Assembly: GCF_003952485.1 (NCBI RefSeq)
Contig: NZ_CP034447.1
Span: forward strand, 6,338,501-6,402,500
Direction of reading: 5' to 3'
DNA length: 64,000 nt
Source: Mesorhizobium sp. M1E.F.Ca.ET.045.02.1.1
GTDB lineage: Bacteria > Pseudomonadota > Alphaproteobacteria > Rhizobiales > Rhizobiaceae
How positions within the stretch are numbered: the first letter of the stretch is position 1; each line of letters begins with the position of its first letter. Shown here in pieces: positions 8,671 to 28,504 of the stretch. Below the pieces are notes generated by a model, which made no database searches, had not been told where the DNA came from, and saw only the letters and a list, made by a program, of their open reading frames with translations. Made by a program: the position numbers and the translations under genes.

Positions 8671-8769
8671 TGGAAGCCTCCCGAGCTAATGGCTGCATCA
8701 AATCACGAAACGCCAGGCCCAAGCTTCAAGAAATGATTGAAAGAATTGTGTGGCGCGCACGGGAGCCCG

Positions 8770-8898
8770 TTCCTCGCCCCCACGGAGTGGGGGAGAGGTG
8801 GCTCGGCGAAGCCGAGACGGAGAGGGGAGCGCCCTACGAAGGCCCCCTCTCCGTCCGCTTCGCGGACACCTCTCCCCCGCTTTGGCGGGGGCGAGGAA
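8770..8898. repeat. Palindromic intergenic element, family B (copy 1)
   Basis: A 129-bp element bounded by a perfect 12-bp inverted repeat, TTCCTCGCCCCC and its complement. The core carries GGGGAGAGGTGGCTCGGCGA, AGCCGAGACGGAGAGG, then GCGCCCTACGAAGGCCCCCT and a mirrored right arm. A near-identical copy is at 18965. It sits between the adenosine deaminase and Gfo/Idh genes, both on the minus strand, and has no coding content. Confidence 0.85.
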
Positions 8899-11819: not shown

Positions 11820-13050
11820 TCACGGCTGACTCATCAAATCGAGCAGCCGCTTCGCCGCTACCGCCGCGCCGTCGGCGCGGACTCTGCTGGCGACCTCGCC
11901 TGCGCGGATACCGGTTTCGGGCGCCAGCGCCGTCCCCAACGCCGCCGATAGTGATTCCGCAGTCGGCGTCGGGCCGTCATGAGCGGCACCGATGCCGACT
12001 TCGGCCACCCGCCGCGCCCAGTAAGGCTGGTCGCCGATCTGCGGCATGACGACTTGCGGCGCCCCTGCCCGCGCCGCGGCGGCGGTCGTGCCGGCGCCGC
12101 CGTGATGCATGACGGCGGCCACGCGGCGGAAGAGCGCCTGCTGGTTGACATCGCCGACGGCGAAGCAGTCGTCGCGATCGTCGATCGGGCCGAGCTCGGC
12201 CCAGCCATGCGCGATGACCGTACGCCGGCCCCTGGCGCGGACCGCCTCGATGGCCGCGCGGCCCGCTTCCCTGGCGACCGCTATCGAGCCGAAGCCGACA
12301 TAGACCGGCGGCGAGCCGGCTTCGAGGAACGCTTCCAGCCCGTCGGGGAGCGGCCGTTCGTCCGGCAGGATCCAGGCGCCGGTCTGCACGGCGTCGATCA
12401 GGTCCGAGGGCAGCCACGGCCCCAGTGTCGGGTCGCAGGCAAGCAGGACAGGATCGCCGTAGACATAGTCGCGGACATTGTCCAACAGATGCAATCCGAG
12501 CGATGCGCGATGGCTGTTGATCGCGCCGCCAAACAGCGCGTTCTTGGTCCGGATATCATGGTCCCAGAGCGCCCTGTTGTCGGTCACGCCGGCTGGAAGC
12601 GGATGTCCCGGATATTCAAAGGGCCGGTTGAGCGCCGACGGCAGCCAGATCGGACAGAAGGTGGCAAGGATGCAGCGGATGCCCCGCTGCTCGGCGACCA
12701 GCCGCGCGGCGGCACAGGAGGGAAAAAGGCCGCACGCCACCACGGCATCGCAGCCTTCGGCGGCCGCCATGAGCGCGTCGAACTGCCTGGCGAGGATCTC
12801 GGCCGCCTGGCCGGAGATGAGCTTCGCCCGGCTCTCGGGCGAAGCGTCCGCCGAACGCCTGATCATTTCCTTCGCCCATGCGCGCACCGGCGAGAAGGCC
12901 CACGCCGGCGCGGGCACATAGCGCAGCAAACTCCTCATCACCGGGGACACTCACCCGCACCTCGGCGCCGAGCGCCTGCAGCCGCTCGCCGAGCGCCACC
13001 ACCGGCTCGACGTCGCCGCGCGAACCATAGGTCGACAACAAAATCCGCAT
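11820..13050 (-). pseudogene. Glycosyltransferase (UGT/GT1 type) with +1 frameshift
   Basis: Two overlapping frames together encode one protein. The first, from ATG 13050, reads MRILLSTYGSRGDVEPVVAL..EEFAALCARAGV, the standard N-terminus of bacterial UGT-type (vancomycin-type) glycosyltransferases. The second continues AFSPVRAWAKEM..GCDAVVACGLFP and ends with the nucleotide-sugar site AVMHHGGAGTTAAAARAGAPQVVMP. Joining them needs removal of one base, most simply one C of the CCC run at 12899-12901. The whole locus is 1231 bp; one base less gives 409 codons plus stop. Only the rear fragment (from 12950) could be made as a long frame, and it lacks the acceptor-site start. A sequencing error in the homopolymer is as likely as a real mutation. 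Confidence 0.85.
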
Positions 13051-13975: not shown

Positions 13976-15682
13976 TTAGCCCTGGCGCCCTTCCTGGGCG
14001 ACCCGGGTGGGCGACCTGGTCAGGCGCGGGACGACCACGAGGCGCTTGATCTTGCCTTTCTTGTAAGCGGCGAGGAAGCGGTGGTAGTCCTTGAAGACGA
14101 CACAGCCATTGGACTCGGCGCGGCCGCCATGCAGCATATAGGTGTGGGCGAGCAGGCCGTCGCGGCCGTATTTGTTCTTGCCACTGGTCGGCGTCAGCCG
14201 GATCGCCTCGACGCCGTGGAAGCGCGATTCACGCATCGACAGATTGTAGGTATCGGGCGGCGTCGGGCCGACATTCTTGCGGTTGACGAAGCGCGGCTGG
14301 TCGACCATCGAGCCGAACCCGGAATGCGCCTCCAGCTTCGAGCCGTCCGGCATGTAGACCGTCCCGGCAGAGATGTCGTAGACGGCGACGCCATTGCCCG
14401 TCGAAGGCCCGTTGAACAGACTCCCGAAGGCCCTGCCGAGGCCGCCGCGCTCGGGCGTGTCCGGCTTGGCGTAGGCGAGCATCTCGGAAGGCTGCGCCTT
14501 GCCGCGCTTGGCCGGCCCGGCATTGACTGGTTTCGAGCCCTGCACGCCCGGAAGCGCCTGCTCGGAACTCCTCAGCGAGCGCAGCGACTGCGGGCCTTCC
14601 GCGGTATCGACGGCGGGCTCAGGCTTCGCGGGCTCCGGCCTGGCAGCTTGGGGCTTTGCCGCCTGGGTTGCCTGCGGCTTGGCCGGATCAGGCTTCCTCG
14701 TGGCATTCTGTTCGGGCGCCTCGGTCGCGCGCTCGAGTGTGGTGCGCGGCCTCAAGCCGGGAACGGCGATGCTGTCGGGCAAATCATCCTGCGGCGGCAG
14801 CGAGGCGACCTGCACTTCACCCGGGCCAGCGGCGGCTTGCCCCGAGGCTTCAGCACCGTCAGAGGCGCCGGCTGCCAGATCCGGCGCACCGCCGTTGGCG
14901 AGCTCGACCGCGGTCGGCACGTCGACCGTCTCTTCGGGCATGACATTGGCCAACGCCAGCGCCAGCTCGGAGGCACGCTCGACGTCGACCTGATTTGAGC
15001 CGAAGCGTGCCTCGGCCGGGCCGGTCTCGGCCAGGTCGGTCTGGGTCGGGTCGTTCTCAGCCGCGCCGCCGAAGCGGCTTGCCGCCGGCAGGCTGGCAAG
15101 CAGGAAAGGCGCGCGCTCGGCGCGCTGGAAGGCATCGGCAAGTTTCTGCGGCGAAAGCCCGGCGCGCTTGACGACGCTGTCGAAACGATCCGCGACGTCC
15201 GCGGCGGAGGCTACCTCCACGGCCTTCTCACGGGCAACCCTGAGCTTTTCAAACGCGACGCTGTCCGGCGCCGCCGGCTTCAGGCGTGCGGCCTTGCCGT
15301 CATGTACCAAGGTGGAGGGGGTCGGGGTGGAGTGCGCGAAGCTGGTGGCGAGGCCGAGACAGCCGCTATCGCAGCCCCTGGTGAGCGATCCCGTCTTGTA
15401 TGGCCCGGCCGCGGCAAGCCGCGGTGCCCAGGCATTGACAAGCTTGCGGCGCTGATCGGCGAGCGCGATGTTGCGCGGCGCGAGCAGGCTCTGCGGCAAT
15501 CCGTTGGAAGCAGCGGTAAGCGTGGTGCTCACCGAATAAAGGCCAGCCAGGGTGGCCACGGACCATAGCGCCAGCGCGGCGCCGACAGCGGGCACCACAA
15601 CCCAACGATGACCACCAGATTTCTTCGAAGTTACCCCCTCTTCAGGAGCGTCACCCCGGTTCTTCACACACAAAAACGCCAT
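13976..15682 (-). CDS. Membrane-anchored DUF2778 (Tlde1-like) domain protein
   Basis: A 568-residue protein from ATG 15682, which has GAGAG upstream; ATGs at 15703 and 15724 are alternatives. One membrane helix near residues 30-55 (VVVPAVGAALALWSVATLAGLYS) anchors it, and a long Ala/Pro/Glu-rich linker follows (about residues 80-400). The C-terminal 160 residues are the DUF2778 domain: GVAVYDISAGTVYMPDGSKL, HSGFGSMVDQPRF, PPDTYNLSMRESRFHGVEAIR, and the catalytic-type HGGRAESNGCVVFKDY with His, Ser and Cys. Tlde1 effectors of type VI secretion use this domain as an L,D-transpeptidase exchange/carboxypeptidase enzyme. Here the membrane anchor and lack of T6SS neighbours suggest a housekeeping cell-wall role. 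Confidence 0.82.
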   Translation of the reverse strand: MAFLCVKNRGDAPEEGVTSKKSGGHRWVVVPAVGAALALWSVATLAGLYSVSTTLTAASNGLPQSLLAPRNIALADQRRKLVNAWAPRLAAAGPYKTGSLTRGCDSGCLGLATSFAHSTPTPSTLVHDGKAARLKPAAPDSVAFEKLRVAREKAVEVASAADVADRFDSVVKRAGLSPQKLADAFQRAERAPFLLASLPAASRFGGAAENDPTQTDLAETGPAEARFGSNQVDVERASELALALANVMPEETVDVPTAVELANGGAPDLAAGASDGAEASGQAAAGPGEVQVASLPPQDDLPDSIAVPGLRPRTTLERATEAPEQNATRKPDPAKPQATQAAKPQAARPEPAKPEPAVDTAEGPQSLRSLRSSEQALPGVQGSKPVNAGPAKRGKAQPSEMLAYAKPDTPERGGLGRAFGSLFNGPSTGNGVAVYDISAGTVYMPDGSKLEAHSGFGSMVDQPRFVNRKNVGPTPPDTYNLSMRESRFHGVEAIRLTPTSGKNKYGRDGLLAHTYMLHGGRAESNGCVVFKDYHRFLAAYKKGKIKRLVVVPRLTRSPTRVAQEGRQG

Positions 15683-15724
15683 ACGACCACTCTCAATCGG
15701 CATGCCGGTTCGCGGACCTGGCAT

Positions 15725-16848: not shown

Positions 16849-17694
16849 ATGCGAAGCATCAAACGAACGGCGATGATCGCAATGTTGGAAACGGACAAGG
16901 TGTTCGCCGGCTCGATTCCGGAAAATTACGACCGCCACATGGTGCCGTTGATTTTCGAGCCATACGCCGCCGATCTTGCACGACGGGCAGCGTCGCTGTC
17001 GCCCGGCGCCGTCCTGGAAACCGCCGCAGGCACCGGCGTCGTCACCCGCGCGCTGGCGTCGAAATTGTCCCCCGGCGCAAGCTATGTTGTGACCGACCTC
17101 AACCAGCCGATGCTCGACTACGCCGCTTCGCGGCAAGGACCCGACAGCCGCATCCGATGGCGCCAGGCGGACGCTATGGCGCTGCCGTTCGAGGACGCAG
17201 CCTTCGATCTTGTCTGCTGTCAGTTCGGCGCGATGTTCTTTCCCGACCGCCCGGCTGCCTATCGGGAGGCAAAGCGCGTGCTCAAGCCCGGCGGACGATT
17301 CCTGTTCAGCGTATGGGATCGCATCGAGGAGAATATTTTCGCTGACGATGTGACGAATGCGCTTGCAAGGATTTTTCCGAGCGATCCGCCGCGCTTCCTG
17401 GCGCGAACGCCGCACGGCTACCACGACAAGGACTTGATCCGCAGGGATCTGGCGGACGCGGGTTTCTCCGGTGTGGCGATCGAGACGCGAGCCGAACAAA
17501 GCCGCGCATCCTCGCCGCGCGTTCCTGCCGTTGCCTATTGCCAGGGAACCCTGCTTCGCAACGAAATCGAGGCCAGGGACGCGGGAAAACTGGAAGCCGC
17601 GACCGACTACGCCACCTCCGTGATTGCCGACAGACATGGCCGCGGCGAGGTTGCCGCCAAAATTCAGGCGCATGTGATCGTGGCTGTGGCGTAG
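16849..17694 (+). CDS. Class I SAM-dependent methyltransferase
   Basis: About 270-280 residues. The family begins close to DKVFAGSIPENYDRHMVPLIFEPYA, so ATG 16882 or 16873 may be the true start instead of 16849; the frame open to 16300 overlaps the DUF2231 gene and is not used. SAM-binding motif I is AVLETAAGTGVVTRALA (residues about 55-70), followed by VVTDLNQPMLDYA, motif II-like FDLVCCQFGAMFFPD and KRVLKPGGRFLFSVWD. This is the UbiE/Methyltransf_11 type; the substrate is unknown. It is convergent with the flavoprotein at 17701, 6 bp apart. Confidence 0.87.
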   Translation: MRSIKRTAMIAMLETDKVFAGSIPENYDRHMVPLIFEPYAADLARRAASLSPGAVLETAAGTGVVTRALASKLSPGASYVVTDLNQPMLDYAASRQGPDSRIRWRQADAMALPFEDAAFDLVCCQFGAMFFPDRPAAYREAKRVLKPGGRFLFSVWDRIEENIFADDVTNALARIFPSDPPRFLARTPHGYHDKDLIRRDLADAGFSGVAIETRAEQSRASSPRVPAVAYCQGTLLRNEIEARDAGKLEAATDYATSVIADRHGRGEVAAKIQAHVIVAVA

Positions 17695-17700
17695 AGCGAT

Positions 17701-18951
17701 TCAGCCCCGAGCCAGGCGCGCATCGGCCAAACCAGGGACGGGTTTCGTCTTGCCGCTGAGCCGCGCGCCCAAGGTCAGCGCCGGCGGAAAATTGCGGACG
17801 ATCGCCTCCATCAGCGCGGCGCCGCCGGGGCCAAGGGCGATTCGGGCGATGGCCTCGGCAGCAAGAATCCGCGTCGCGAACAATCTTCTCCAGGCCGCCT
17901 CGTAGCGTCTGCCGGCCGCCTCGCGTCCTGCCTGTCCCCCTGCCGCCTCGCCGAGCTCTTGAGCCAAGAGCCAGCCGGACTGAAGCGCCATCGATATGCC
18001 CTCGGCAATGATCGGGTGCGACTCGCCGGCGGCATTGCCGACGCGGAAGATGTCCCGTTCGTAGCCGGCGCGGATGCCTGGCCGGATCGGACCGGCCGCA
18101 AGCCATGGACCGTAGAGGCGGGCTTCCACCAGAGCGTCACGCGCGCCCCTGCATGTCGCCCTGATATGATGCTCGACGGCCTCGGCCGCCGAAACATGGC
18201 CGCCGCGTTCGCAGGCGAGGCTGCCGCGCAGCCGGGCGAGCATATCGCGCCTGATGCAGCAGCAGATCGACATGCGGCCATGATCGGCGACCACCATGCC
18301 GCCATAGCCGCCGGGAAAAGTCAGCAGCGGCATCAGGTCGGGCGGCAGCGACGATCCGGTGAAATGCGCCTTGAAGCCGAGGAGGTCGGAGGGACGACTT
18401 TTCTTAACGACCTGGCTCGGCAGCGGTCCCGGCTCCCACGAACCGTGCGCGGCGACGATCACCGGCGCCCGCAGGACCGTCGCCACGTCGCGGGAATTGC
18501 CGCCGGTTGGCCGGATCCGCACTGCTTGGCAGTCGCCATCGCGTTCGATGGCGACGGCGCGGCAGGGCTGGAAGACTTGCGCGCCGGCGGACCGGGCCGC
18601 ACCGAGCAGCAGCGTATCCAGTATGTCGCGGCCCAACGCTCGGCCGAAGCCGCCCCTTGCCGCGAGCGCGGCCTTCGCGCCCGGCATCGGCGCCTCGATA
18701 CAGGCGTCGCCGGAAAAAAGGCCGACGCGGCGGATTTCGGGGCCGGCCTCGGCGCGCCAGGCATCGCCGATCCCGAGCCGGTCGAGCAGCGTGAGATTGC
18801 TTGCCGAGATGTATTCGCCGCACACCTTGCGGCGCGGAAACACGCTCTTCTCCACGATCGCCACGGCCCATCCGCGCCGGGCGAGCGCCAACGCCGCCGA
18901 CGTGCCCGCCGGACCGGCGCCGATGACGACCGCATCGTGGGTGCGCCTCAT
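17701..18951 (-). CDS. FAD-dependent oxidoreductase of the geranylgeranyl-reductase / hydroxylase type
   Basis: A 416-residue flavoprotein. The frame is open upstream, but ATG 18951 gives the canonical dinucleotide fold at once: HDAVVIGAGPAGTSAALALARRGW, then EKSVFPRRKVCGEYIS, as in geranylgeranyl reductase-like and aromatic hydroxylase flavoproteins. The second FAD motif is FRVGNAAGESHPIIAEGISMALQSG. It lies downstream of the type III PKS and methyltransferase genes on the same strand, separated from them by repeat element B. By analogy with phenolic-lipid operons it would oxidise or hydroxylate the polyketide-derived ring, which is inference. Its stop is close to the convergent methyltransferase. 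Confidence 0.85.
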   Translation of the reverse strand: MRRTHDAVVIGAGPAGTSAALALARRGWAVAIVEKSVFPRRKVCGEYISASNLTLLDRLGIGDAWRAEAGPEIRRVGLFSGDACIEAPMPGAKAALAARGGFGRALGRDILDTLLLGAARSAGAQVFQPCRAVAIERDGDCQAVRIRPTGGNSRDVATVLRAPVIVAAHGSWEPGPLPSQVVKKSRPSDLLGFKAHFTGSSLPPDLMPLLTFPGGYGGMVVADHGRMSICCCIRRDMLARLRGSLACERGGHVSAAEAVEHHIRATCRGARDALVEARLYGPWLAAGPIRPGIRAGYERDIFRVGNAAGESHPIIAEGISMALQSGWLLAQELGEAAGGQAGREAAGRRYEAAWRRLFATRILAAEAIARIALGPGGAALMEAIVRNFPPALTLGARLSGKTKPVPGLADARLARG

Positions 18952-18964
18952 GGCGTTGTTCCAG

Positions 18965-19106
18965 CTTGGGTTCCTCGCCCCCACGAAGGTGGGGGAGAGG
19001 TGGCTCGGCGAAGCCGAGACGGAGAGGGGGAGCGCCCTACGAAGGCCCCCTCTCCGGCCGCTTGGCGGCCACCTCTCCTCCGCTCCGCCGGGGCGAGGAA
19101 CCCAAG
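18965..19106. repeat. Palindromic intergenic element, family B (copy 2)
   Basis: A close copy of the element at 8770, here bounded by a perfect 17-bp inverted repeat, CTTGGGTTCCTCGCCCC at 18965-18981 and its complement at 19090-19106. It lies inside the PKS operon, between the methyltransferase and flavoprotein genes. As RNA it would form a long hairpin that could attenuate the downstream flavoprotein gene. Confidence 0.85.
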
Positions 19107-19132
19107 TTTTGTAGGGTCGCGCCGCAATCTCC

Positions 19133-19903
19133 CTACTCCCACTTGTGAGGGGCGGACGTGGCCATAATTCCATGTGCCATTGTCTTGTAGGCCCTCGCAT
19201 CATCCCCGCACGCCCCAACAAAGACGTGGGAGAAAGGCCCGGCTCGCCGCTCTTCCAGCGGCCTGCCGCCGACGGCGCTCCAGATGTCGGAAAGCTCCGT
19301 GCCGCGGAAGCCGGCGCGCACGCTCTGAGCGGCGTCATGCCTGGTGACGTCATTGGCGCCGATCGCCGGCAGAAGACGGGTCGCGGCCAGCGCGAAGCCT
19401 GCCCGCAGCGGCTCCGTCGCCAGGATGAGCGGAGCCCTGCGCTGCAAAAGCGAAAACAGGCGCAGCAGTCCGTCGTCACCGAAATGATGCAGGAACAGGT
19501 TGACGGTGATCGCGTCGAAGGCCCTGCCATCCGCCGTCTGCGCCCAGTCGAAGACATCGGCGGTGATGGTTTCGAGCGTCCAGCCCAGCCCGGCGAAATC
19601 CGCCGTGAGCCGTGGCGTGACGAGGCCGACGCGGTCGAGCATCGTCAGTTCCACCCCATGCCAGTCCCTTGCCATGCGCCGCGCCACCTTGAGCATAAAG
19701 GTGCCGTCGCCGGCGCCGATCTCCAGGATGCGGCCGGGCGGCCTGGCCATGAATTTCCGCAGCAGCGAGGCCATGATCGGCGCCTGGAACATCAGCGCGT
19801 TGATGCGGGCCAGATCGCGGCGCGAGCGTAGCGCCCGCGCATCGTCGGCCGCGAGGCGGTCGAGGATTTCCGGAACGAGGCTGCGTTGAGCGAGCGGGCT
19901 CAT
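19133..19903 (-). CDS. SAM-dependent methyltransferase in the type III PKS operon
   Basis: A 256-residue class I methyltransferase starting at ATG 19903, which overlaps the stop of the PKS gene in an ATGA, so the two are translationally coupled. SAM motif I is RILEIGAGDGTFMLKVARRM, with LTMLDRVGLVTPRL as the second strand and FDAITVNLFLHHFGDDGLLRLF as the post-motif region. It is related to the Methyltransf_12/25 group rather than to the integral-membrane isoprenylcysteine type found beside some bacterial type III PKSs. The likely job is O- or C-methylation of the polyketide product. Confidence 0.85.
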   Translation of the reverse strand: MSPLAQRSLVPEILDRLAADDARALRSRRDLARINALMFQAPIMASLLRKFMARPPGRILEIGAGDGTFMLKVARRMARDWHGVELTMLDRVGLVTPRLTADFAGLGWTLETITADVFDWAQTADGRAFDAITVNLFLHHFGDDGLLRLFSLLQRRAPLILATEPLRAGFALAATRLLPAIGANDVTRHDAAQSVRAGFRGTELSDIWSAVGGRPLEERRAGPFSHVFVGACGDDARAYKTMAHGIMATSAPHKWE

Positions 19904-20967
19904 GAGACGGTCCGGAACAGCATGGTCTCGGCCGTCAGGCCGGGTCCGAACGACATGGCGCAGCCGAGCAATCCGCCTGGCGCCTTCAGCATCTCTTCCA
20001 TCACGAACATGACTGTCGCCGACGACATGTTGCCGTATCGGCGCAGCACCTCGCGCGACGGCGCGAGCGCGGCCGGCGCGAGGTTCAGCGCCCTCTCGAC
20101 GGCGTCGAGAATGGTGCGTCCGCCGGGATGCACGGCCCAGAGGTCGATCGCGTCCGGCGGCCGGCCGCCGAGGATGGCGTCCTGGTTGCCACGCAGCGCT
20201 TCCTGGATCGCCGCCGGCACCTGGCCGGAGAGAAACATGTCGAAGCCATGGTCGCGGATATCCCAGGTCATCAGCTCCCGCCGCTCGTCCGCGACGGTGC
20301 AACGGAAACTGTCGAGCTCGATGCCGGTCGGCTCGGCGGTGACGAGGCTCGCCGCGCAGCCGTCGCCCCAAAGGCAGAAGGACAAAAGCTTTTCCAGCTC
20401 GGCAGTTTCCCTCAGATGCAGCGTGCAGACCTCGATGTTGACCAGGAGGACCCTGGCCTGCGGGTCGGAGCGGACGATATGGCGGGCAAGCTTGAGGCCG
20501 TTGATCGCCGCATAGCAGCCCATGAACCCGATCATCGTGCGTTCGACACCGTCCGGCAGGCCGCAGCGCTGAACCAGGTCGAGGTCGATGCCGGGCGCCG
20601 AGAAACCGGTGCAGGAGGTGACGATGAGGTGGGTGACGCGCGATGCCTCTTCGCCAAGGCGCAGCCCGTCGACGGCCTTTTGCGCCAGGACGGGTGCGGC
20701 TTGGCTGAACATCGCCATTCTGGCCGCCGTTCCGGGAAACGCGCCGCGCCTGAAGGTTCCGCCAAGATCGGCCGATGGCCCCTCGGGGTCGAGAGCGGGC
20801 GCAAAGCATGAGAAGCGATGCTCGATGCCGGCAAGGCCGGCCATGCGTTCGAATATCCTCCTGCGATCGGCCGCGAGCATGGAGGCGGCGTAGCGCAGGT
20901 AGAACTGGTGGACCTCATGCTCCGGAACCGCTGTCGCGATCCGGTTGATATAGGCGTTCACGGGCAT
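19900..20967 (-). CDS. Type III polyketide synthase (chalcone-synthase-like)
   Basis: A 355-residue homodimeric ketosynthase that extends an acyl-CoA starter with malonyl-CoA and cyclises the chain. The catalytic triad is visible: Cys in ERTMIGFMGCYAAINGLKLA (about residue 150), His in DLWAVHPGGRTILDAVE and Asn in RRYGNMSSATVMFVMEE. The glycine-rich C-terminal motif is present as SFGPGLTAETMLF. It begins MPVNAYINRIATAVPEHE, the usual thiolase-fold start. It heads an operon with a methyltransferase (ATGA overlap) and a flavoprotein, an arrangement like the Streptomyces srsABC phenolic-lipid locus. Long-chain or aromatic starters are both possible; the product is unknown. Confidence 0.92.
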   Translation of the reverse strand: MPVNAYINRIATAVPEHEVHQFYLRYAASMLAADRRRIFERMAGLAGIEHRFSCFAPALDPEGPSADLGGTFRRGAFPGTAARMAMFSQAAPVLAQKAVDGLRLGEEASRVTHLIVTSCTGFSAPGIDLDLVQRCGLPDGVERTMIGFMGCYAAINGLKLARHIVRSDPQARVLLVNIEVCTLHLRETAELEKLLSFCLWGDGCAASLVTAEPTGIELDSFRCTVADERRELMTWDIRDHGFDMFLSGQVPAAIQEALRGNQDAILGGRPPDAIDLWAVHPGGRTILDAVERALNLAPAALAPSREVLRRYGNMSSATVMFVMEEMLKAPGGLLGCAMSFGPGLTAETMLFRTVS

Positions 20968-22246: not shown

Positions 22247-23683
22247 GTGAATTACGATTTCAAATGCCACTTATCGCGCCGAGGCTTTCTCGGCGCGGCG
22301 GCGGGGCTTGCAGTGTCCGCTTCGTTACGTCCCGCCGTGGCCTCCGGCGTCGACGAGCGCAGCATCAAGGTCGCGCCCAGCCAGGCGCGGCTCACCGGGC
22401 AGGACGGCCCTGCAACCGCTGTCTGGGCGTATAATGGCACCGTCCCCGGTCCGGCGTTGCGGCTCAGGCAAGGCCAGCCGGTCCGCATCACCGTCGAAAA
22501 CGGGTTGGACGAGGACACGACTGTCCACTGGCATGGAATCCGCCTGCCGAACGCCATGGACGGGGTGCCGGGGCTTACGCAGTCGCCCATCAAGCCGGGC
22601 GGAAGCTTCGTCTACGAATTCACGCCGCCGGATGCAGGTACCTTCTGGTACCATCCGCATGCCGACAGCCTGGTGCAGATCGGCCGCGGCTTGGCCGGCC
22701 CGCTGATCGTCGAGGAGGCCGAGCCGGTCGCAGTCGACCGCGATGTCCTGTGGCTGCTGCAGGACTGGCGGCTCACCAAAGACGGCCGGATCGCCGGCGG
22801 CTTCGGCAGCATGATGGATGCCTCGATGTCCGGACGCGTCGGCAATCTCGTGACCGTCAACGGGCAGGCGCAGGGCGGTCAAGGCGTGCGGGCCGGCGAG
22901 CGCCTCAGGCTGCGACTCGCCAATGCCTCGCTTGCCCGCATGATGGCGCTTCGCTTCGAAGGCCACCGGCCGGTCGTCCTGGCGATCGACGGCCAGCCTT
23001 GCGACCCGCACGAGCCTGAAGATGGCCGTCTGGTGCTGGCGCCCGCCATGCGCATCGACATCGCGCTCGACATGCAGGGCGATCCCGGCAGCCGGCATGA
23101 CGTGATCGACGATTTTTACGACGGCCTCGCCTATCGGCTGACCACGCTCGCCTACGACAAGGCGCCTCCGCTCAGGGCGCATCCGCTCGACACGCCACTG
23201 GCCCTGCCGCGGAATCCGCTGCCCGAGCCCGACCTGGCGAACGCCGTGCGGCAGGAGGTCGTGCTGCAAGGCGGCATGATGGGCGGCGGCAAGCTCGCTG
23301 GCGTCGGCGGGATGATGGGCATGGCGATGCCTGGCATGAACGGCACGGCGGCCTGGTCGATCAACGGCATATCGATGACCGGCGACGGTCATGCCGGCAT
23401 GACGCCGCAGTTTACGCTGCGGCGGGGCGTCACCTGCCACCTAACAATTCGCAACGAAACTGCCTGGTGGCACCCAATGCACGTGCACGGGTTCAGCCTT
23501 TTGCTGCTCTCCCGCAACGGCTCGCCCGTGCCGCACCGGCAATGGCAGGACACGGTGCTGCTTGCGCCGAAGGACACGGTCGAATGCGCCTTCGTCGCCG
23601 ACAATCCCGGCGACTGGATGCTGCACTGCCACGTCGTCGACCACCAGATGGCCGGCCTGATGACCGTGTTCCGGGTGACCTGA
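22247..23683 (+). CDS. Multicopper oxidase, Tat-exported (first copy)
   Basis: A 478-residue periplasmic copper oxidase. GTG 22247 is the only workable start and is preceded by AGAAGG. The Tat signal SRRGFLGAAAGLAVSASL is at residues 10-28. All copper-ligand motifs are present: TTVHWHGIRLP, FWYHPHADS, HPMHVHGFSL and the T1/T3 motif MLHCHVVDHQMAGLM. A Met/Gly-rich segment (GGMMGGGKLAGVGGMMGMAM) before the last cupredoxin domain resembles the Met-rich copper-binding insert of CueO-like enzymes. Expected role: oxidation of Cu(I) or phenolic substrates in the periplasm. It is followed after 34 bp by the DUF411 gene. Confidence 0.93.
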   Translation: MNYDFKCHLSRRGFLGAAAGLAVSASLRPAVASGVDERSIKVAPSQARLTGQDGPATAVWAYNGTVPGPALRLRQGQPVRITVENGLDEDTTVHWHGIRLPNAMDGVPGLTQSPIKPGGSFVYEFTPPDAGTFWYHPHADSLVQIGRGLAGPLIVEEAEPVAVDRDVLWLLQDWRLTKDGRIAGGFGSMMDASMSGRVGNLVTVNGQAQGGQGVRAGERLRLRLANASLARMMALRFEGHRPVVLAIDGQPCDPHEPEDGRLVLAPAMRIDIALDMQGDPGSRHDVIDDFYDGLAYRLTTLAYDKAPPLRAHPLDTPLALPRNPLPEPDLANAVRQEVVLQGGMMGGGKLAGVGGMMGMAMPGMNGTAAWSINGISMTGDGHAGMTPQFTLRRGVTCHLTIRNETAWWHPMHVHGFSLLLLSRNGSPVPHRQWQDTVLLAPKDTVECAFVADNPGDWMLHCHVVDHQMAGLMTVFRVT

Positions 23684-23717
23684 ATCAATCCAACCATCAA
23701 CCAAGGAGAACTGCAAA

Positions 23718-24158
23718 ATGAAACTGACTTACGCGCTGACCGCCCTCGGCCTTGCAATCGCAACGCCGCTGCCGGCACTCGCCGCGACGATCGATGCGGT
23801 GATGTACAAGAATCCGCAATGCAGCTGCTGCGAGGCTTATGCCGCCTATCTCGAACAGAACGGCTTCAAGGTCGATATCAAGCCGGTCAACAATCTGTCC
23901 CAGATCAGCAGCGATGCCGGCGTGCCCACCGACCTCGAAGGCTGCCACACGATCATGGTCGACGGCTATGTGGTCGACGGCCTGGTGCCGGTCGATGTCG
24001 TCAAGAAGCTGTTGACAGAACGGCCCGCCATTACGGGGATCACGCTGGCCGGCATGCCGGCGGGCGCGCCCGGCATGGGCGGCGCAAAGAACGAGACCTG
24101 GACGGTCTACGCCTTTACCAAGGACGGCAAGGCGCCGACCGTCTATGCGACGGAATGA
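23718..24158 (+). CDS. DUF411 metal-binding protein
   Basis: A 146-residue exported protein preceded by the strong ribosome site AAGGAG. A signal peptide ends in PALAA. The DUF411 core starts IDAVMYKNPQCSCCEAYAAYL, with the CxCC metal-binding motif, continues GVPTDLEGCHTIMVDGYVVDGLVPVDVVKKLL and ends in the P-A-I-T-GITLAGMPAGAPGM loop typical of the family. DUF411 proteins occur in copper and other metal resistance loci and probably bind Cu(I) in the periplasm. Its stop overlaps the next gene in an ATGA. Confidence 0.9.
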   Translation: MKLTYALTALGLAIATPLPALAATIDAVMYKNPQCSCCEAYAAYLEQNGFKVDIKPVNNLSQISSDAGVPTDLEGCHTIMVDGYVVDGLVPVDVVKKLLTERPAITGITLAGMPAGAPGMGGAKNETWTVYAFTKDGKAPTVYATE

Positions 24159-24697
24159 GCTCCATGACCGCAAGCAAACTGGCCGTCGCCCTTTCGGCAA
24201 TGCTGCTCGCAGCCTCGCTGCCCGCTGCGGCGGCCGAGGCGCCGCAGAACTTCGCCGTTCTCGATACGCCCGCCGCAGTGCCGGAGATCGGCTTCGCGGA
24301 CGCTGCCGGCCAGCCGAAGACGCTGGCCGCCTATTCCGGCAAGGTGGTGTTGCTCAACATCTGGGCGACCTGGTGCGGGCCCTGTCGCGAGGAAATGCCG
24401 ACGCTCGACCGTCTGCAGACCGAGCTCGGCGGGCCGGACTTCGAGGTCGTCGCCCTGTCGATGGATCGCAAAGGCCCCGACGCCGTGAAGAAGTTCTTCG
24501 CCGAGACCGGCGTCACGCATCTCGCCCTCAACATCGACAGTTCGGGCAAGGCGATGTTCACGCTCGGCGCCCTCGGCCTTCCGATGACCCTGCTGATCGA
24601 CGGCAGCGGCAGGGAGATCGGCCGGCTGATCGGCCCGGCCGAGTGGGATGCCCCCGACATGGTCGACTTCATCCGCGGCCGCATCGCCGCCAAATGA
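24155..24697 (+). CDS. TlpA-like periplasmic thiol-disulfide oxidoreductase
   Basis: A 180-residue protein from ATG 24155, overlapping the DUF411 stop (ATGA). Signal peptide KLAVALSAMLLAASLPAAAA; then the thioredoxin fold with the active site LLNIWATWCGPCREEMPTLD (WCGPC) and cis-Pro in LGLPMTLLIDGSGREIGRLIG. TlpA/ResA proteins reduce disulfides in the periplasm, often those of copper chaperones and cytochrome c apoproteins. Its place between DUF411 and SCO genes fits keeping the metal-binding Cys pairs reduced. The frame is open upstream but that part overlaps DUF411. Confidence 0.9.
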   Translation: MSSMTASKLAVALSAMLLAASLPAAAAEAPQNFAVLDTPAAVPEIGFADAAGQPKTLAAYSGKVVLLNIWATWCGPCREEMPTLDRLQTELGGPDFEVVALSMDRKGPDAVKKFFAETGVTHLALNIDSSGKAMFTLGALGLPMTLLIDGSGREIGRLIGPAEWDAPDMVDFIRGRIAAK

Positions 24698-24711
24698 GAA
24701 GGAAATGACCG

Positions 24712-25446
24712 ATGCTTTTGCAGACCAAGTCGCGTGAGGTCTCCTGGAATGGATGGGCATTGATGCTGCGCGGGCTTGTCGCGCTCGCAGTGCTGGCTTT
24801 CGGCTTCACCCACGGTGCGCGGGCGCATTCGCTGGACGACATCGACGCCATGCTCCAGAGCGGCGAGAAGTATTTCCAGCAGATCGACAAGCCGATGCCC
24901 GACTTCACACTGCGCGCCGCCGATGGGCGCGTGGTGCGGCCGGCCGATCTCGCCGGCAAGGTCGTAGTGCTTCAATTCATCTACACCTCATGCCCGGACG
25001 TTTGCCCGCTGCATGCCGAAAAGATCGCAGAGGTCCAGAAGATGGTGAACTCGACACCGATGAAGGATCGGGTCGTCTTCATCAGCATAACCACCGACCC
25101 GCGGAAAGACACGCCCGATGCGCTCAAGGCCTACGGGCCGACGCACGGGCTGGACCCGGCCAACTGGCTGTTCCTGACCACTGCCCCGGACCAGCCGGAG
25201 GATACGACCCGCAAACTGGCGGAAGCCTTCGGCCACAAGTTCACCCTCGCCGACGACGGCTACCAGATGCACGGCATCGTCACCCATGTGATCGACAAGG
25301 AGGGTCGCTGGCGGGCGAACTTCCACGGACTGAACTTCCAGCCCATCAACCTCGTCACCTTCGTCAACGCGCTCACCAACAATGTCGAGCACCCGCACTA
25401 TGAGCAGCACGAAGGCTGGCTGGCGAAACTGAAGAACCTGCTGTGA
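24712..25446 (+). CDS. SCO1/SenC family copper chaperone
   Basis: A 244-residue membrane-anchored or exported protein; an N-terminal hydrophobic stretch (MLRGLVALAVLAFGFTHGARA) precedes the SCO domain. The copper ligands are present: Cys pair in FIYTSCPDVCPLHAEK and His in GYQMHGIVTHVIDKEG. SCO proteins deliver copper to the CuA site of cytochrome oxidase or act as thiol-redox proteins. A C-terminal extension (NNVEHPHYEQHEGWLAKLKNLL) adds extra histidines. It follows the TlpA gene by 14 bp with GAAGGAA as the ribosome site, and is clearly in the same operon. Confidence 0.92.
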   Translation: MLLQTKSREVSWNGWALMLRGLVALAVLAFGFTHGARAHSLDDIDAMLQSGEKYFQQIDKPMPDFTLRAADGRVVRPADLAGKVVVLQFIYTSCPDVCPLHAEKIAEVQKMVNSTPMKDRVVFISITTDPRKDTPDALKAYGPTHGLDPANWLFLTTAPDQPEDTTRKLAEAFGHKFTLADDGYQMHGIVTHVIDKEGRWRANFHGLNFQPINLVTFVNALTNNVEHPHYEQHEGWLAKLKNLL

Positions 25447-25483
25447 GGCAGGACCACCGCTTTCGAACAAGGAAGGGAGACAC

Positions 25484-26275
25484 ATGTTCACCAGGGCGCA
25501 CACGAGCCGATTCTTCGGCAGTATCTTTCGCACCATCCTGCTCGCCGGCCTGGCGGGATGGTTCCTGCTCAATCCAGGCCTTCCAGGCGCGCGGGGACCG
25601 GCATTCGCAGCCGGCGAAATGTCCCAGGACCAGCTCGACCAACGGATACACGACTACATTCTGGCGCACCCGGAGGTTCTCGTGCAGGCGCTGCAGAGCC
25701 TGGACGAGCGCCAGCGTCAAGCGGAGGCGACCGAGGCCAGGAAGGCGCTCAAGGCGCGAGCGGCCGACATCTTCCACGACAAGCAGAGCCCCGTCGGCGG
25801 TAATGCGCAAGGCAATGTCACCCTGGTCGAGTTCTTCGACTACAATTGCCCCTATTGCCGAATGATGGCGCCGATCATGGAACAGGCCGTGGCCGACGAT
25901 CCGCAGCTTAGAATCGTCTACAAGGAATTTCCCATCCTCGGCCCCGATTCCGTGTTCGCGGCCAAGGCCGCGCTCGCCGCCGACAAGCAGGGCAAATACG
26001 CAGCCTTTCACAAGGCGCTCTATGCGGCAAAGACAAGAGTGACCGAGGCGGTCGTGCTCAAGACCGCCGCCGAGGCCGGGCTGGACGTCGAACGCATGAA
26101 GGCCGATATGCGGCAGCCCGATATCCAGGCATCGATCGACCGCAATACGGAACTGGCCCAGGCGCTGCGGATCACCGGGACGCCGGGCTTCGTCGCCGGC
26201 GATAGGATTTATCCCGGCGCGACCGATCTTGCGACACTGAAGACATTCGTCAATCAAGCGAGGGCCGGCAAATGA
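25484..26275 (+). CDS. DsbA-family thiol-disulfide oxidoreductase
   Basis: A 263-residue periplasmic protein with an N-terminal signal/anchor (IFRTILLAGLAGWFLLNPG). An N-terminal helix region (LDQRIHDYILAHPEVLVQALQSLDERQRQAE) precedes the thioredoxin-like domain, as in the BdbD/ScsC-like group. The active site is FFDYNCPYCRMMAPIME (CPYC) and cis-Pro is in ITGTPGFVAGDRIYPGA. It should oxidise or isomerise periplasmic thiols; ScsC-type members are associated with copper tolerance. It overlaps the next gene in an ATGA. Confidence 0.9.
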   Translation: MFTRAHTSRFFGSIFRTILLAGLAGWFLLNPGLPGARGPAFAAGEMSQDQLDQRIHDYILAHPEVLVQALQSLDERQRQAEATEARKALKARAADIFHDKQSPVGGNAQGNVTLVEFFDYNCPYCRMMAPIMEQAVADDPQLRIVYKEFPILGPDSVFAAKAALAADKQGKYAAFHKALYAAKTRVTEAVVLKTAAEAGLDVERMKADMRQPDIQASIDRNTELAQALRITGTPGFVAGDRIYPGATDLATLKTFVNQARAGK

Positions 26276-26829
26276 CCGACATCCCAAACCGGCGCACGGT
26301 TGTTCTAAGCGTGTTCGGCGTCGCCGCGGCCGCAGGACTTTTCGAGCTGCCGGAACCGGCAATCGCTGCCGAGGATCCGGAATTGGCAAGGCGTTTCAAG
26401 GAGCTCAGCGAGAGCGGCAACAGCACCTGCTCGGCCAAGTTCACGGATTCGATCGCGACCATGCCGGCGACGGCTCGCATCAAGGGCTCGTGCTGCAGCC
26501 CGATGGAACTGAAGCGCTATGGCGAGCAGGTGAGAGGGCTCGCCAAGTACCGCGCCATCCCGATGATCCCCGGCGATCCTTACGACATTGCTGTGGCGAC
26601 GGCGCAGCAGATGATGCCGTACTACGATCTGAAGCTCACCGGAGACGAGCAGAAGGCCTATGACTACGCGATGGCCAATTCCGAGGAGAAAGGTCCCTGC
26701 TGCTGTCCTTGCTGGCGATGGAAGGTGTATGGCGGACTGGCGAAATACCTGATCCACGAGCACCGCTTCACCGGCGAGCAGATCGTTGATGTGTGGGACC
26801 TTTCGGACGGCTGCGGCGGAGACGCTTGA
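26272..26829 (+). CDS. Cysteine-rich exported protein of unknown function
   Basis: A 185-residue protein coupled to the DsbA-like gene by an ATGA overlap. Residues 7-32 (RRTVVLSVFGVAAAAGLFELPEPAIAA) look like a Tat signal peptide. The mature part has about nine Cys: STCSAK, KGSCCSPM, GPCCCPCWRWKVYGGLAKYL and a late DGCGGD. The CCCxC cluster followed by WRWKVYGGLAKYLI is distinctive, and I do not recognise a named family. Its coupling to a disulfide enzyme and its place in a copper operon suggest a periplasmic metal-binding protein whose thiols are handled by the DsbA-like partner. That is inference. Confidence 0.7.
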   Translation: MTDIPNRRTVVLSVFGVAAAAGLFELPEPAIAAEDPELARRFKELSESGNSTCSAKFTDSIATMPATARIKGSCCSPMELKRYGEQVRGLAKYRAIPMIPGDPYDIAVATAQQMMPYYDLKLTGDEQKAYDYAMANSEEKGPCCCPCWRWKVYGGLAKYLIHEHRFTGEQIVDVWDLSDGCGGDA

Positions 26830-26893
26830 TCTCCCTTGCCGCAAGCCCTCGCCTGGCGAGTGCAGGCGGACCTGCGGCCCTGCCCTAAAGGGC

Positions 26894-26924
26894 TTGACCT
26901 TCCAGTCACTGGAACCCCTAACGT
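26894..26924 (+). promoter_or_regulatory. CueR/HmrR-type copper-responsive promoter (19-bp spacer)
   Basis: TTGACC (-35, 26894-26899) and TAACGT (-10, 26919-26924) are separated by exactly 19 bp, the over-long spacer used by MerR-family activators. The spacer holds the dyad CCTTCCAGTCACTGGAACCC, which closely matches CueR/HmrR operators (ACCTTCC..GGAAGGT). It lies 54 bp upstream of the second multicopper oxidase gene. No cueR/hmrR gene is in the window. This is the best-formed promoter here. Confidence 0.85.
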
Positions 26925-26977
26925 GAGCAGAAGGTCGCTAGCGGCGCGCCTTCCCAATCACGATCGAGGAGAAAAAG

Positions 26978-28504
26978 ATGCATCGACGCGGTTTTCTGGC
27001 GGCAGGCCTGGCAACGGTTCTGTCAGGTTCTCGCGCGCTGGCGCAGATGAAGATGGACGGCATGTCGAACATGGATTCCATGCCCGGCATGGACATGGGC
27101 GGCCATGCGGGCCATGACATGGGCGCCATGGGCCAGGGTCCCGTGGCGCTACCCGAGGGTCAGCCCTTGCGCGAATTGCCGCTGCTTGCCAACGAGGCCA
27201 GCCGGTCCGGCCTGTTCAAGGCGAGACTGACGGCGGAGCCCGCCACCGTGCGCTTTGCCGCGGACCGGGACACGCCGATCCTTGCCTATAACGGCACGAG
27301 CCCCGGCCCGTTGATCGAAGCCTATGAGGGTGACCGCGTCGAGATCGCTTTCGCCAACCGGATCGAGGGTGAGCAAAGCACGATCCACTGGCACGGCATG
27401 CCGGTGCCCGCCGACCAGGACGGCAATCCGATGGACCCGGTGGCGGCAGGCGCGGACCGCGTCTATGCCTTCGAGCTGCCCGAAGGCAGCGCCGGCTCCT
27501 ACTGGTACCACCCGCATCCGCATGGCCGCACGGCCGAGCAGGTCTATCGCGGCCTTGCCGGCGCCTTCGTCGTCAAGGCGAAGGCCGATCCCGTTCCGGC
27601 GGTCTATGGCGACACGGTGCTTATGTTCACCGACCTTCGCCTGGCCGCCGACGGCTCGATGCCCGACAGCACCATGGCCGACCAGATGAACGGCCGCGTC
27701 GGCGACCATGTGCTGGTCAACGGCCAGAAGAACCCGCGACTCGCCGTGGCGATGGGCGCGAAGCGGCGCCTGCGGCTCTACAACGCCACCAATGCGCGCT
27801 TCCTGAGGCTTGCCTTCGACGGCGCGGCGATGACGATCATCGGCACAGACGGCGGCCTGCTGGAGAAGCCGGTTGCAGCCAACGAGATCATGCTCAGCCC
27901 GGCCGAGCGCGTCGAATTGGTCGTCGCCTTCGACAGGCCGGGCGCCGCAACGCTCACCACGCTTGACTACGACCGCGGCTGGATGGGCGCCGGCCGGCCG
28001 GCGGACGCCGGGCTGACGCTGCTCACCGCCGACGTAGCGGAAACGCCGGGAGAAGCGATGCCGCCGCTGCCCGAGCGGCTCAGGCCAATCGCGCCGCTTG
28101 GGCAGCCCGCGGTCAGCCGCCGTCTCGTCTTCACCGAGACCATGGCGATGAACGCCACTAGCATGGAGATGGGCTTCCTGATCAACGGCAAGGCCTTCGA
28201 TATGGAGCGCGTCGACATCGTCGCCCGGGCCGGCGAGACCGAGCTCTGGGAAATCGTCAACCAGGCCGACATGGACCATCCGTTCCACCTCCATGGCACG
28301 CAGTTCCAGGTGGTCGAGCACGAGCGCGACGGCAAGGTCTCGAAGCCGCCCTATCGGGCATGGAAGGACACCGTCAACGTGGCGCGCGGCGAGACGGTGC
28401 GGCTCTTGTTGCGCCAGGAGCGGCCAGGCGCGCGCATGTATCACTGCCACATCCTCGAGCATGAGCAGCTCGGCATGATGGGCATTGTCGACGTGCAGGC
28501 ATGA
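26978..28504 (+). CDS. Multicopper oxidase, Tat-exported, CueO/CopA-like (second copy)
   Basis: A 508-residue periplasmic oxidase with a Tat signal (MHRRGFLAAGLATVLSGSRA) and an N-terminal Met/His-rich tract (MKMDGMSNMDSMPGMDMGGH). Copper ligands: TIHWHGMPVP, YWYHPHPHGRTAEQ, HPFHLHGTQFQV and MYHCHILEHEQLGMMG. The Met-rich tract and ligand pattern point to cuprous oxidase activity that detoxifies Cu(I). AGGAG lies just upstream of ATG 26978, and a CueR-type promoter precedes it, so induction by copper is expected. It is translationally coupled to the cytochrome gene by an ATGA. It differs from the first oxidase (22247) in linker and Met-rich region positions, so the two are not a recent duplication. 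Confidence 0.94.
   Translation: MHRRGFLAAGLATVLSGSRALAQMKMDGMSNMDSMPGMDMGGHAGHDMGAMGQGPVALPEGQPLRELPLLANEASRSGLFKARLTAEPATVRFAADRDTPILAYNGTSPGPLIEAYEGDRVEIAFANRIEGEQSTIHWHGMPVPADQDGNPMDPVAAGADRVYAFELPEGSAGSYWYHPHPHGRTAEQVYRGLAGAFVVKAKADPVPAVYGDTVLMFTDLRLAADGSMPDSTMADQMNGRVGDHVLVNGQKNPRLAVAMGAKRRLRLYNATNARFLRLAFDGAAMTIIGTDGGLLEKPVAANEIMLSPAERVELVVAFDRPGAATLTTLDYDRGWMGAGRPADAGLTLLTADVAETPGEAMPPLPERLRPIAPLGQPAVSRRLVFTETMAMNATSMEMGFLINGKAFDMERVDIVARAGETELWEIVNQADMDHPFHLHGTQFQVVEHERDGKVSKPPYRAWKDTVNVARGETVRLLLRQERPGARMYHCHILEHEQLGMMGIVDVQA

Follow-up and report, generated by a model that had tools for sequence, protein, structure and literature searches.

The 64,000-nucleotide stretch of Mesorhizobium sp. 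M1E.F.Ca.ET.045.02.1.1 considered here (contig NZ_CP034447.1, positions 6,338,501 to 6,402,500; "the window") comes from a genome assembled as one contig of 7.35 Mb. It contains a set of three genes encoding a type III polyketide synthase (PKS), a class I S-adenosylmethionine (SAM) methyltransferase (MT) and a flavin adenine dinucleotide (FAD) flavoprotein (FP), located where an earlier reading of this DNA (the original prediction) had placed them, on the minus strand (Table 1). The trio is a real, conserved and functional-looking pathway of a known kind, and the original prediction proved perceptive in most respects apart from its choice of the Streptomyces srsABC locus as a model. On balance, the locus probably represents a minimal phenolic-lipid pathway with a product of the hierridin type. 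The observations behind this interpretation are gene content, co-inheritance, the active-site residues of the PKS, the predicted folds of MT and FP, and purifying selection.

Table 1. Features of the trio locus in window coordinates.
Feature	Position	Strand	Evidence
Type III polyketide synthase (PKS), 355 aa	19900..20967	-	Pfam, alignment
Soluble class I SAM methyltransferase (MT), 256 aa, subtype MT-A	19133..19903	-	Pfam, NCBIfam, model
Interspersed palindromic repeat between MT and FP	18965..19106	.	Inverted arms, genome copies
FAD flavoprotein (FP), 416 aa, subtype FP-A, probable ring-oxidising enzyme	17701..18951	-	Pfam, motifs, model

Both chalcone synthase domains are recognised in the PKS (Chal_sti_synt_N with 86.1 bits and the C domain with 85.3 bits, each against a cut-off of 27), which together with a Cys-His-Asn triad places the enzyme among the type III PKSs. 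Alignment with alfalfa chalcone synthase (CHS) assigns Cys151, His280 and Asn313 to CHS positions 164, 303 and 336, while Trp235 and Met244 fall at CHS 256 and CHS 265. Across 97 rows, the triad, a Glu (CHS 192) and a Ser (CHS 338) are invariant, and Cys132, His197, Trp256 and Met265 (CHS numbering) occur in 97, 96, 96 and 95 rows, respectively; this set comprises the window and loci L004 to L101 minus L092 and L093, contains many near-identical Mesorhizobium rows and takes in two loci with atypical PKSs, L087 and L099. The PKS consensus left out L086, L087 and L088. The combination of Cys132, His197 and Met265 also occurs in Deinococcus and Paludisphaera, and in Paenibacillus except for a Leu at 265; the full set is absent from Caballeronia and from all eleven outgroup PKSs displayed. 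The window strain's own genome contains two further matches to the PKS domain models, one barely above and one below the cut-off, neither of which is matched by the window PKS (tblastn, E 1e-3).

In ArsB, Trp281 directs resorcinol formation; its counterpart in the pyrone-forming ArsC is Gly284, and exchange of this residue for Trp shifts Met293 (PMC6274091). Since the spacing of nine residues between this Trp or Gly position and the Met is shared by ArsC and the window PKS, ArsB Trp281 would correspond to CHS 256 and hence to Trp235. The active-site residues of the PKS favour a 5-alkylresorcinol as the product. A possible, clearly less probable product is an alkyl-alpha-pyrone, in which case MT would cap the pyrone hydroxyl and FP would oxidise the chain or the ring, as suggested for myxobacterial clusters. 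Myxococcota have a conserved type III PKS cluster of the alkylpyrone-like kind (PMC12766979), some myxobacterial clusters hold an MT and a flavin monooxygenase (PMC8776678), and the second distinct protein among the solved relatives of the PKS is the alkylpyrone synthase pks18 (PMC5916927). A counterpart of Trp235 is also found in Pks11. However, pks18 itself has a Leu at this position, where Trp is found in 96 of the 97 rows of the trio set, and the planctomycete relatives made resorcinols (PMC10896814).

The MT is a soluble class I enzyme, as the original prediction had stated in setting it apart from the Srs methyltransferase: class I domains are recognised by Pfam (Methyltransf_23 with 30.8 bits, Methyltransf_25 with 27.9 bits, cut-off 27). 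Its structural model has a mean predicted local distance difference test (pLDDT) score of 91.9; its confidence is high as far as about residue 230 and low thereafter, so that the enzyme core looks intact in the model. The last 20 to 25 residues or so are encoded by DNA that relatives do not share. The nearest solved folds are small-molecule methyltransferases, including DnrK, MfnG, MmcR, TnmH and a stilbenoid methyltransferase, at template modelling (TM) scores by query of 0.46-0.63 and identities of 13-21%, values at which the fold search fixes the class of the enzyme and not its substrate. By name, these matches are mostly O-methyltransferases, with C-methyltransferases such as Fur6 appearing within the first 50. 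The solved structures closest by sequence profile carry mostly uninformative names.

FP, with its 416 aa counted from the start common to its relatives, scores 61.5 bits with FAD_binding_3 (cut-off 22). Its two best NCBIfam models stay below their cut-offs, the GG-red-SF superfamily with 83 bits (cut-off 158.8) and the flavin monooxygenase QhpG with 56.4 bits (cut-off 240). The structural model (mean pLDDT 91.3) is closest to the folds of halogenases (CmlS, 118 bits by profile, ChlB4, CndH and Bmp2), to which FP is 17-20% identical, followed by a geranylgeranyl-reductase-like protein, PqsL, squalene epoxidase and 3-hydroxybenzoate 6-hydroxylase. FADH2-dependent halogenases are marked by the motif WxWxIP and geranylgeranyl reductases by YxWxFP. 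In a motif scan that excluded rows of 330 aa or less, WxWxIP occurred in 0 of 73 FP-A and 0 of 13 FP-B proteins, and YxWxFP in 0 of the 73 FP-A proteins. The motifs GGY[AG]G and GNxAGExHP, by contrast, are present in all 73 FP-A proteins scanned, and a loose DG pattern in 12 of them. Assignment as a geranylgeranyl reductase was rejected on the missing motif and on the score, which stays below the cut-off of TIGR02032. It is also very improbable that FP acts as an FADH2-dependent halogenase in the synthesis of a halogenated phenolic lipid. Although halogenases are its top PDB matches by both profile and fold and a hierridin is chlorinated by a mechanism that is not known (PMC8086630), the halogenase motif is absent from every protein scanned and the identity to halogenases is low; this candidate was rejected as well.

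Two Deinococcus loci bear on the reaction of FP. The flavoprotein in the corresponding slot there shows the DG and GD motifs typical of aromatic hydroxylases and in one of the two loci reaches 168.6 bits with FAD_binding_3, so hydroxylation fits this position in the pathway. Because the halogenase and reductase motifs are missing and the Deinococcus slot holds a hydroxylase-type flavoprotein, ring hydroxylation is favoured as the reaction of FP, by analogy. The role of "FAD hydroxylase", named in the original prediction for the srsABC counterpart, is plausible for FP, with the qualification that FP lacks both WxWxIP and YxWxFP and has GN at a site where GD is usual in hydroxylases.

The conservation of the trio was followed by a scan of genome contigs with the PKS, from which the best 80 of 165 relatives were kept. 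Of these 80 loci, 76 have the complete trio; the closest 53 of the 80 all carry the label Mesorhizobium. In the incomplete loci L004, L018 and L079, only 656, 740 and 1507 bases, respectively, remain beyond the PKS gene. The trio lies on one strand in 71 loci, with a 4-nt overlap between PKS and MT in 53 and between MT and FP in 43 of them, gene starts having been picked by script. Complete sets in nearly all loci and frequent 4-nt overlaps argue against a chance association. In five loci (L048-L052), MT and FP are oriented divergently to the PKS gene; the MT in L016 and the FP in L030 each appear in two pieces. In a genus-wide search, the PKS was found in 78 of 146 Mesorhizobium genomes (E 1e-60) and FP in 77, all of them within the 78. 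The sole genome with a PKS and no FP match (G088) has its PKS near a contig end, and its position and 92% identity suggest a case like that of L004, where the contig breaks off at this point. Across a sample of the class, 8 of 289 genomes, the window strain included, have the PKS (E 1e-50); MT and FP adjoin it in six of the seven others, and the seventh (L099) lacks both. The corresponding FP search gave at least 2 of 289, again with the own genome, a lower bound because FP has diverged and few candidates per genome were scored. The trio genes are under purifying selection, with ratios of nonsynonymous to synonymous substitution rates (dN/dS) of 0.14-0.28 in 15 comparisons of the three genes with five relatives. 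The original prediction had proposed a check of conservation in rhizobia and had named a failure of the genes to co-occur in related genomes as a finding that would speak against it; the trio is conserved and does co-occur.

This distribution bears on a proposal that shares its kind of chemistry with the hierridin-type reading and adds a role, namely that the product is a polyketide quinone serving as an alternative respiratory electron carrier, as in pkqABC and Streptomyces. Three-gene units of PKS, methyltransferase and oxidoreductase do make quinones in M. smegmatis and Streptomyces (PMC9927152). A function in core respiration is not compatible with the patchy occurrence of the PKS in genus and class, with no match at E 1e-60 in 68 of the 146 Mesorhizobium genomes and a presence in 8 of 289 Alphaproteobacteria. 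In addition, the MT lies outside the ICMT family found beside bps-type PKSs, and no tie to respiration was seen in the window, though none was searched for. The respiratory role is hence considered unlikely. Roughly every second Mesorhizobium genome in the sample has the pathway, and a membrane phenolic lipid or quinone, if this is the product, may affect envelope, stress or respiratory traits of these legume symbionts.

In the hierridin-type pathway, the starter, the cyclisation, the order of steps, the product and its role are all inferred. The PKS would be primed with a fatty acyl group supplied by ordinary fatty-acid metabolism and would extend it with three malonyl-CoA units, and the resulting tetraketide would be closed by an aldol reaction to a 5-alkylresorcinol. 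FP would then oxidise the ring, most likely by hydroxylation, to a hydroquinone or quinone, which the class I MT would methylate, with oxygen as the likelier site. A methoxylated alkylphenol or alkylquinone, held in the membrane, would result. Several points weigh against this scheme. The Trp at CHS 256 is no proof of resorcinol formation, as ICMT-paired PKSs and Pks11, whose name refers to alpha-pyrone synthesis, have it too. FP is without the canonical motifs of group A monooxygenases, and its nearest solved folds are those of halogenases. One locus of the 80 (L065) has no FP despite 5994 bases beyond the PKS, and the PKS of L099 has neither MT nor FP beside it. Myxobacterial type III PKS clusters with an MT and a monooxygenase have been linked to alkylpyrones (PMC8776678, PMC12766979). 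In the planctomycete study, no role was assigned to the oxidoreductase, and the methyl group was placed probably on carbon and not on oxygen (PMC10896814). Finally, the likeness to the cyanobacterial proteins HidA, HidB and HidC is drawn from descriptions and not from their sequences.

The original prediction spoke of an operon with a repeat element ahead of the FP gene. The repeat is present, with inverted arms at 18965-18988 and 19083-19106 and a nested pair at 18991-19004 and 19068-19081. A 161-base query around the repeat found 93 matches in this strain's genome. Many of them stem from a single site, matched by its two arms or on both strands, and at six other places most of the query length matches with 89-93% identity. 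The insert is missing in all seven Mesorhizobium relatives aligned across the MT-FP junction, five of which have MT and FP frames overlapping by 4 nt. These alignments show that a repeat copy separated MT from FP in the window strain and changed the end of MT. The trio stands as a gene unit, with the PKS stop overlapped by the MT start by 4 nt, but MT and FP are separated by 181 nt in this strain. Another copy of the repeat lies at about 8769-8898 of the window.

Beyond the close relatives, the trio is carried on plasmids in Sphingobium, Deinococcus, Paracoccus, Mesorhizobium INR15, Microvirga and the planctomycete Paludisphaera, and an unannotated Paenibacillus plasmid matches all three proteins. 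Its surroundings vary: a glycosyltransferase accompanies the trio in Deinococcus and a cyclopropane-synthase-like gene in Mesorhizobium INR15, the FP of Microvirga is short, and Paludisphaera has the gene order MT-FP-PKS. Acyl carrier protein (ACP) and ketosynthase genes lie upstream of the trio in Sphingobium (L084:3572-5004) and beside it in Caballeronia (L087:5330-6846), which suggests an ACP-bound starter at these two loci. Dedicated starter genes were rejected as a general feature, since ACP and ketosynthase queries matched these two loci only and nothing in the window. Caballeronia combines an A-type MT (40%) and FP (44%) with a PKS only 31% identical to that of the window.

Phylogenetic trees were calculated for rows picked from 112 loci, 53 for the PKS (quick method) and 41 each for MT and FP, and a later, careful PKS tree comprised 38 rows. 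In the PKS tree, alphaproteobacterial and Polyangiaceae enzymes form one group of 37 rows (support 99), which Deinococcus joins with a support of 81, while the PKSs of Paludisphaera, Paenibacillus, Caballeronia and Nocardia have unsettled places or long branches. The MT tree divides into two subtypes (100) and the FP tree into A (95) and B (88), with long-branch warnings. Strict inheritance of MT and FP as one cassette was given up as an explanation, because L072, L076 and L078 combine MT-A with FP-B. On the careful PKS tree, at least two changes of MT subtype and three of FP subtype are needed, and constraining the PKSs with an A-type MT to one clade gave a borderline p-value of 0.042 in the approximately unbiased (AU) test. 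On this basis, MT and FP subtypes have probably been exchanged on one PKS lineage, though the support is not strong. In other observations, Mesorhizobium soli (L073:5992-8913) has an MT and FP of the B subtype, unlike the other Mesorhizobium loci placed in the trees, and a plasmid of Mesorhizobium AR07 bears a broken flavoprotein remnant (L112:2993-3738).

The M. loti clade has a variant of the pathway, in which the PKS gene is directly followed by one for a sulfotransferase (L048-L052 and L101). In L048 (7062-8270, plus strand), the sulfotransferase gene reaches 106.9 bits with PF13469 and overlaps the PKS gene at a TGATG. This gene occurs in 12 of the 146 Mesorhizobium genomes (E 1e-60), exactly the 12 with a PKS 71-73% identical to that of the window, and lies within about 100 bases of the PKS in each of them; the same search gave no match in the window strain. 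In the adp cluster of Streptomyces davaonensis, alkylresorcinols are sulfated by a sulfotransferase encoded beside a type III PKS (PMC12135136). Both systems have a sulfotransferase gene adjoining a type III PKS gene, which is resorcinol-forming in adp. However, adp is a five-gene operon of a PKS, a sulfotransferase and three 3'-phosphoadenosine-5'-phosphosulfate (PAPS) genes, with neither MT nor FP (PMC12135136), and the likeness refers to gene context. By this analogy, the product would probably be sulfated in the M. loti clade and unsulfated in the window strain. A more tentative idea is that the PKS lineage is a constant platform on which tailoring enzymes can be swapped. In Mesorhizobium and its kin, MT and FP of the A subtype, the latter a flavoprotein subgroup marked by GGY[AG]G and GNxAGExHP, would then give a head group unlike those of hierridins and Srs quinones, and the M. 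loti clade product would be sulfated and anionic as well. The match between sulfotransferase and sub-lineage and the probable MT and FP exchanges provide a compact group of enzymes on which the diversification of phenolic lipids can be tested.

Several other genes surround the trio. A UbiE-like class I methyltransferase gene (16888-17694, plus strand) converges with the FP gene and ends 7 nt from it. A run of copper-handling-like genes at 22247-28504 (plus strand) includes two multicopper oxidases and thioredoxin/SCO-like proteins, as judged from translations only. On the minus strand, 13976-15724 encodes a 582-aa protein with a Tlde1 domain (99.3 bits), and a protein cluster sharing its N-terminus is present in 17 of the 80 fetched loci. 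A glycosyltransferase at 11820-12950 (minus strand) resembles the rifamycin-inactivating Rgt with 368.5 bits, the cut-off of 800 not being reached. A link of this glycosyltransferase with the trio was rejected, as two glycosyltransferases from Deinococcus found no match in the window (tblastn, E 1e-3).

The original prediction took srsABC as its template, and both srsABC and pkqABC share the order PKS, methyltransferase, flavoprotein with the window (PMC9927152, PMC8730385). The gene order notwithstanding, true membership of the srsABC family, with methylated quinones of the Srs type, is the least probable account of the locus and was rejected. The methyltransferase SrsB, of the membrane ICMT type, contrasts with the class I MT of the window. 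Annotated ICMT genes adjoin other type III PKSs in Bacillus, Nitrobacter, Azospirillum and Stenotrophomonas, and these four PKSs form, with one from Rhizobium phaseoli that has no annotated partner, a separate group (support 97) outside which the window PKS falls. Three ICMT queries against the 112 loci matched L099, L102, L107, L108 and L109 only, none of them of the trio type; L099 has no trio. The ICMT-type enzyme is therefore not found at trio loci, and the PKS contrast refers to the four plasmid ICMT-paired PKSs and not to SrsA or PkqA. The chemistry of the trio is probably still similar to that of srsABC and pkqABC, and a likeness to Srs chemistry is possible even though family membership fails.

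Novelty, suggested for the product by the original prediction, does not extend to the make-up of the trio. In Acetobacteraceae, a PKS, a methyltransferase and a FAD monooxygenase occur in all clusters found, with a product that is not known (PMC8776678). These clusters have the same three functions as the window, and Microvirga and Paracoccus are named among their nearest relatives (PMC8776678). The Microvirga and Paracoccus PKSs examined fall in the clade of the window PKS, with MT and FP of the B subtypes where the window has A. A paper on the product of the Mesorhizobium trio was not found in a literature search that covered few subscription journals; the trio is widespread, and its kind is already familiar from cyanobacteria and planctomycetes.

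In the cyanobacterial hidABC type, two gene orders are reported, one of which is PKS-MT-oxidoreductase as in the window, and both systems combine a type III PKS, a methyltransferase and an oxidoreductase (PMC8086630). An adjacent set of type III PKS, class I MT and FAD oxidoreductase, the hid-like arrangement, is present in 76 of the 80 loci. In planctomycetes, 58 of 96 type III PKS genes lie in such an operon, and expression of the trio yielded alkylresorcinols that were methylated once when MT and oxidoreductase were added (PMC10896814). The only planctomycete trio compared, that of Paludisphaera (L088), is homologous to the window in all three proteins (PKS 38%, MT 28%, FP 32%), distant, and an open fork in the PKS tree. 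These identities are low. Between planctomycete and cyanobacterial proteins, identities of 48-55% are reported (PMC10896814). The hierridin-like hidABC trio and the Acetobacteraceae trio match the window better than srsABC and are its closer analogues.

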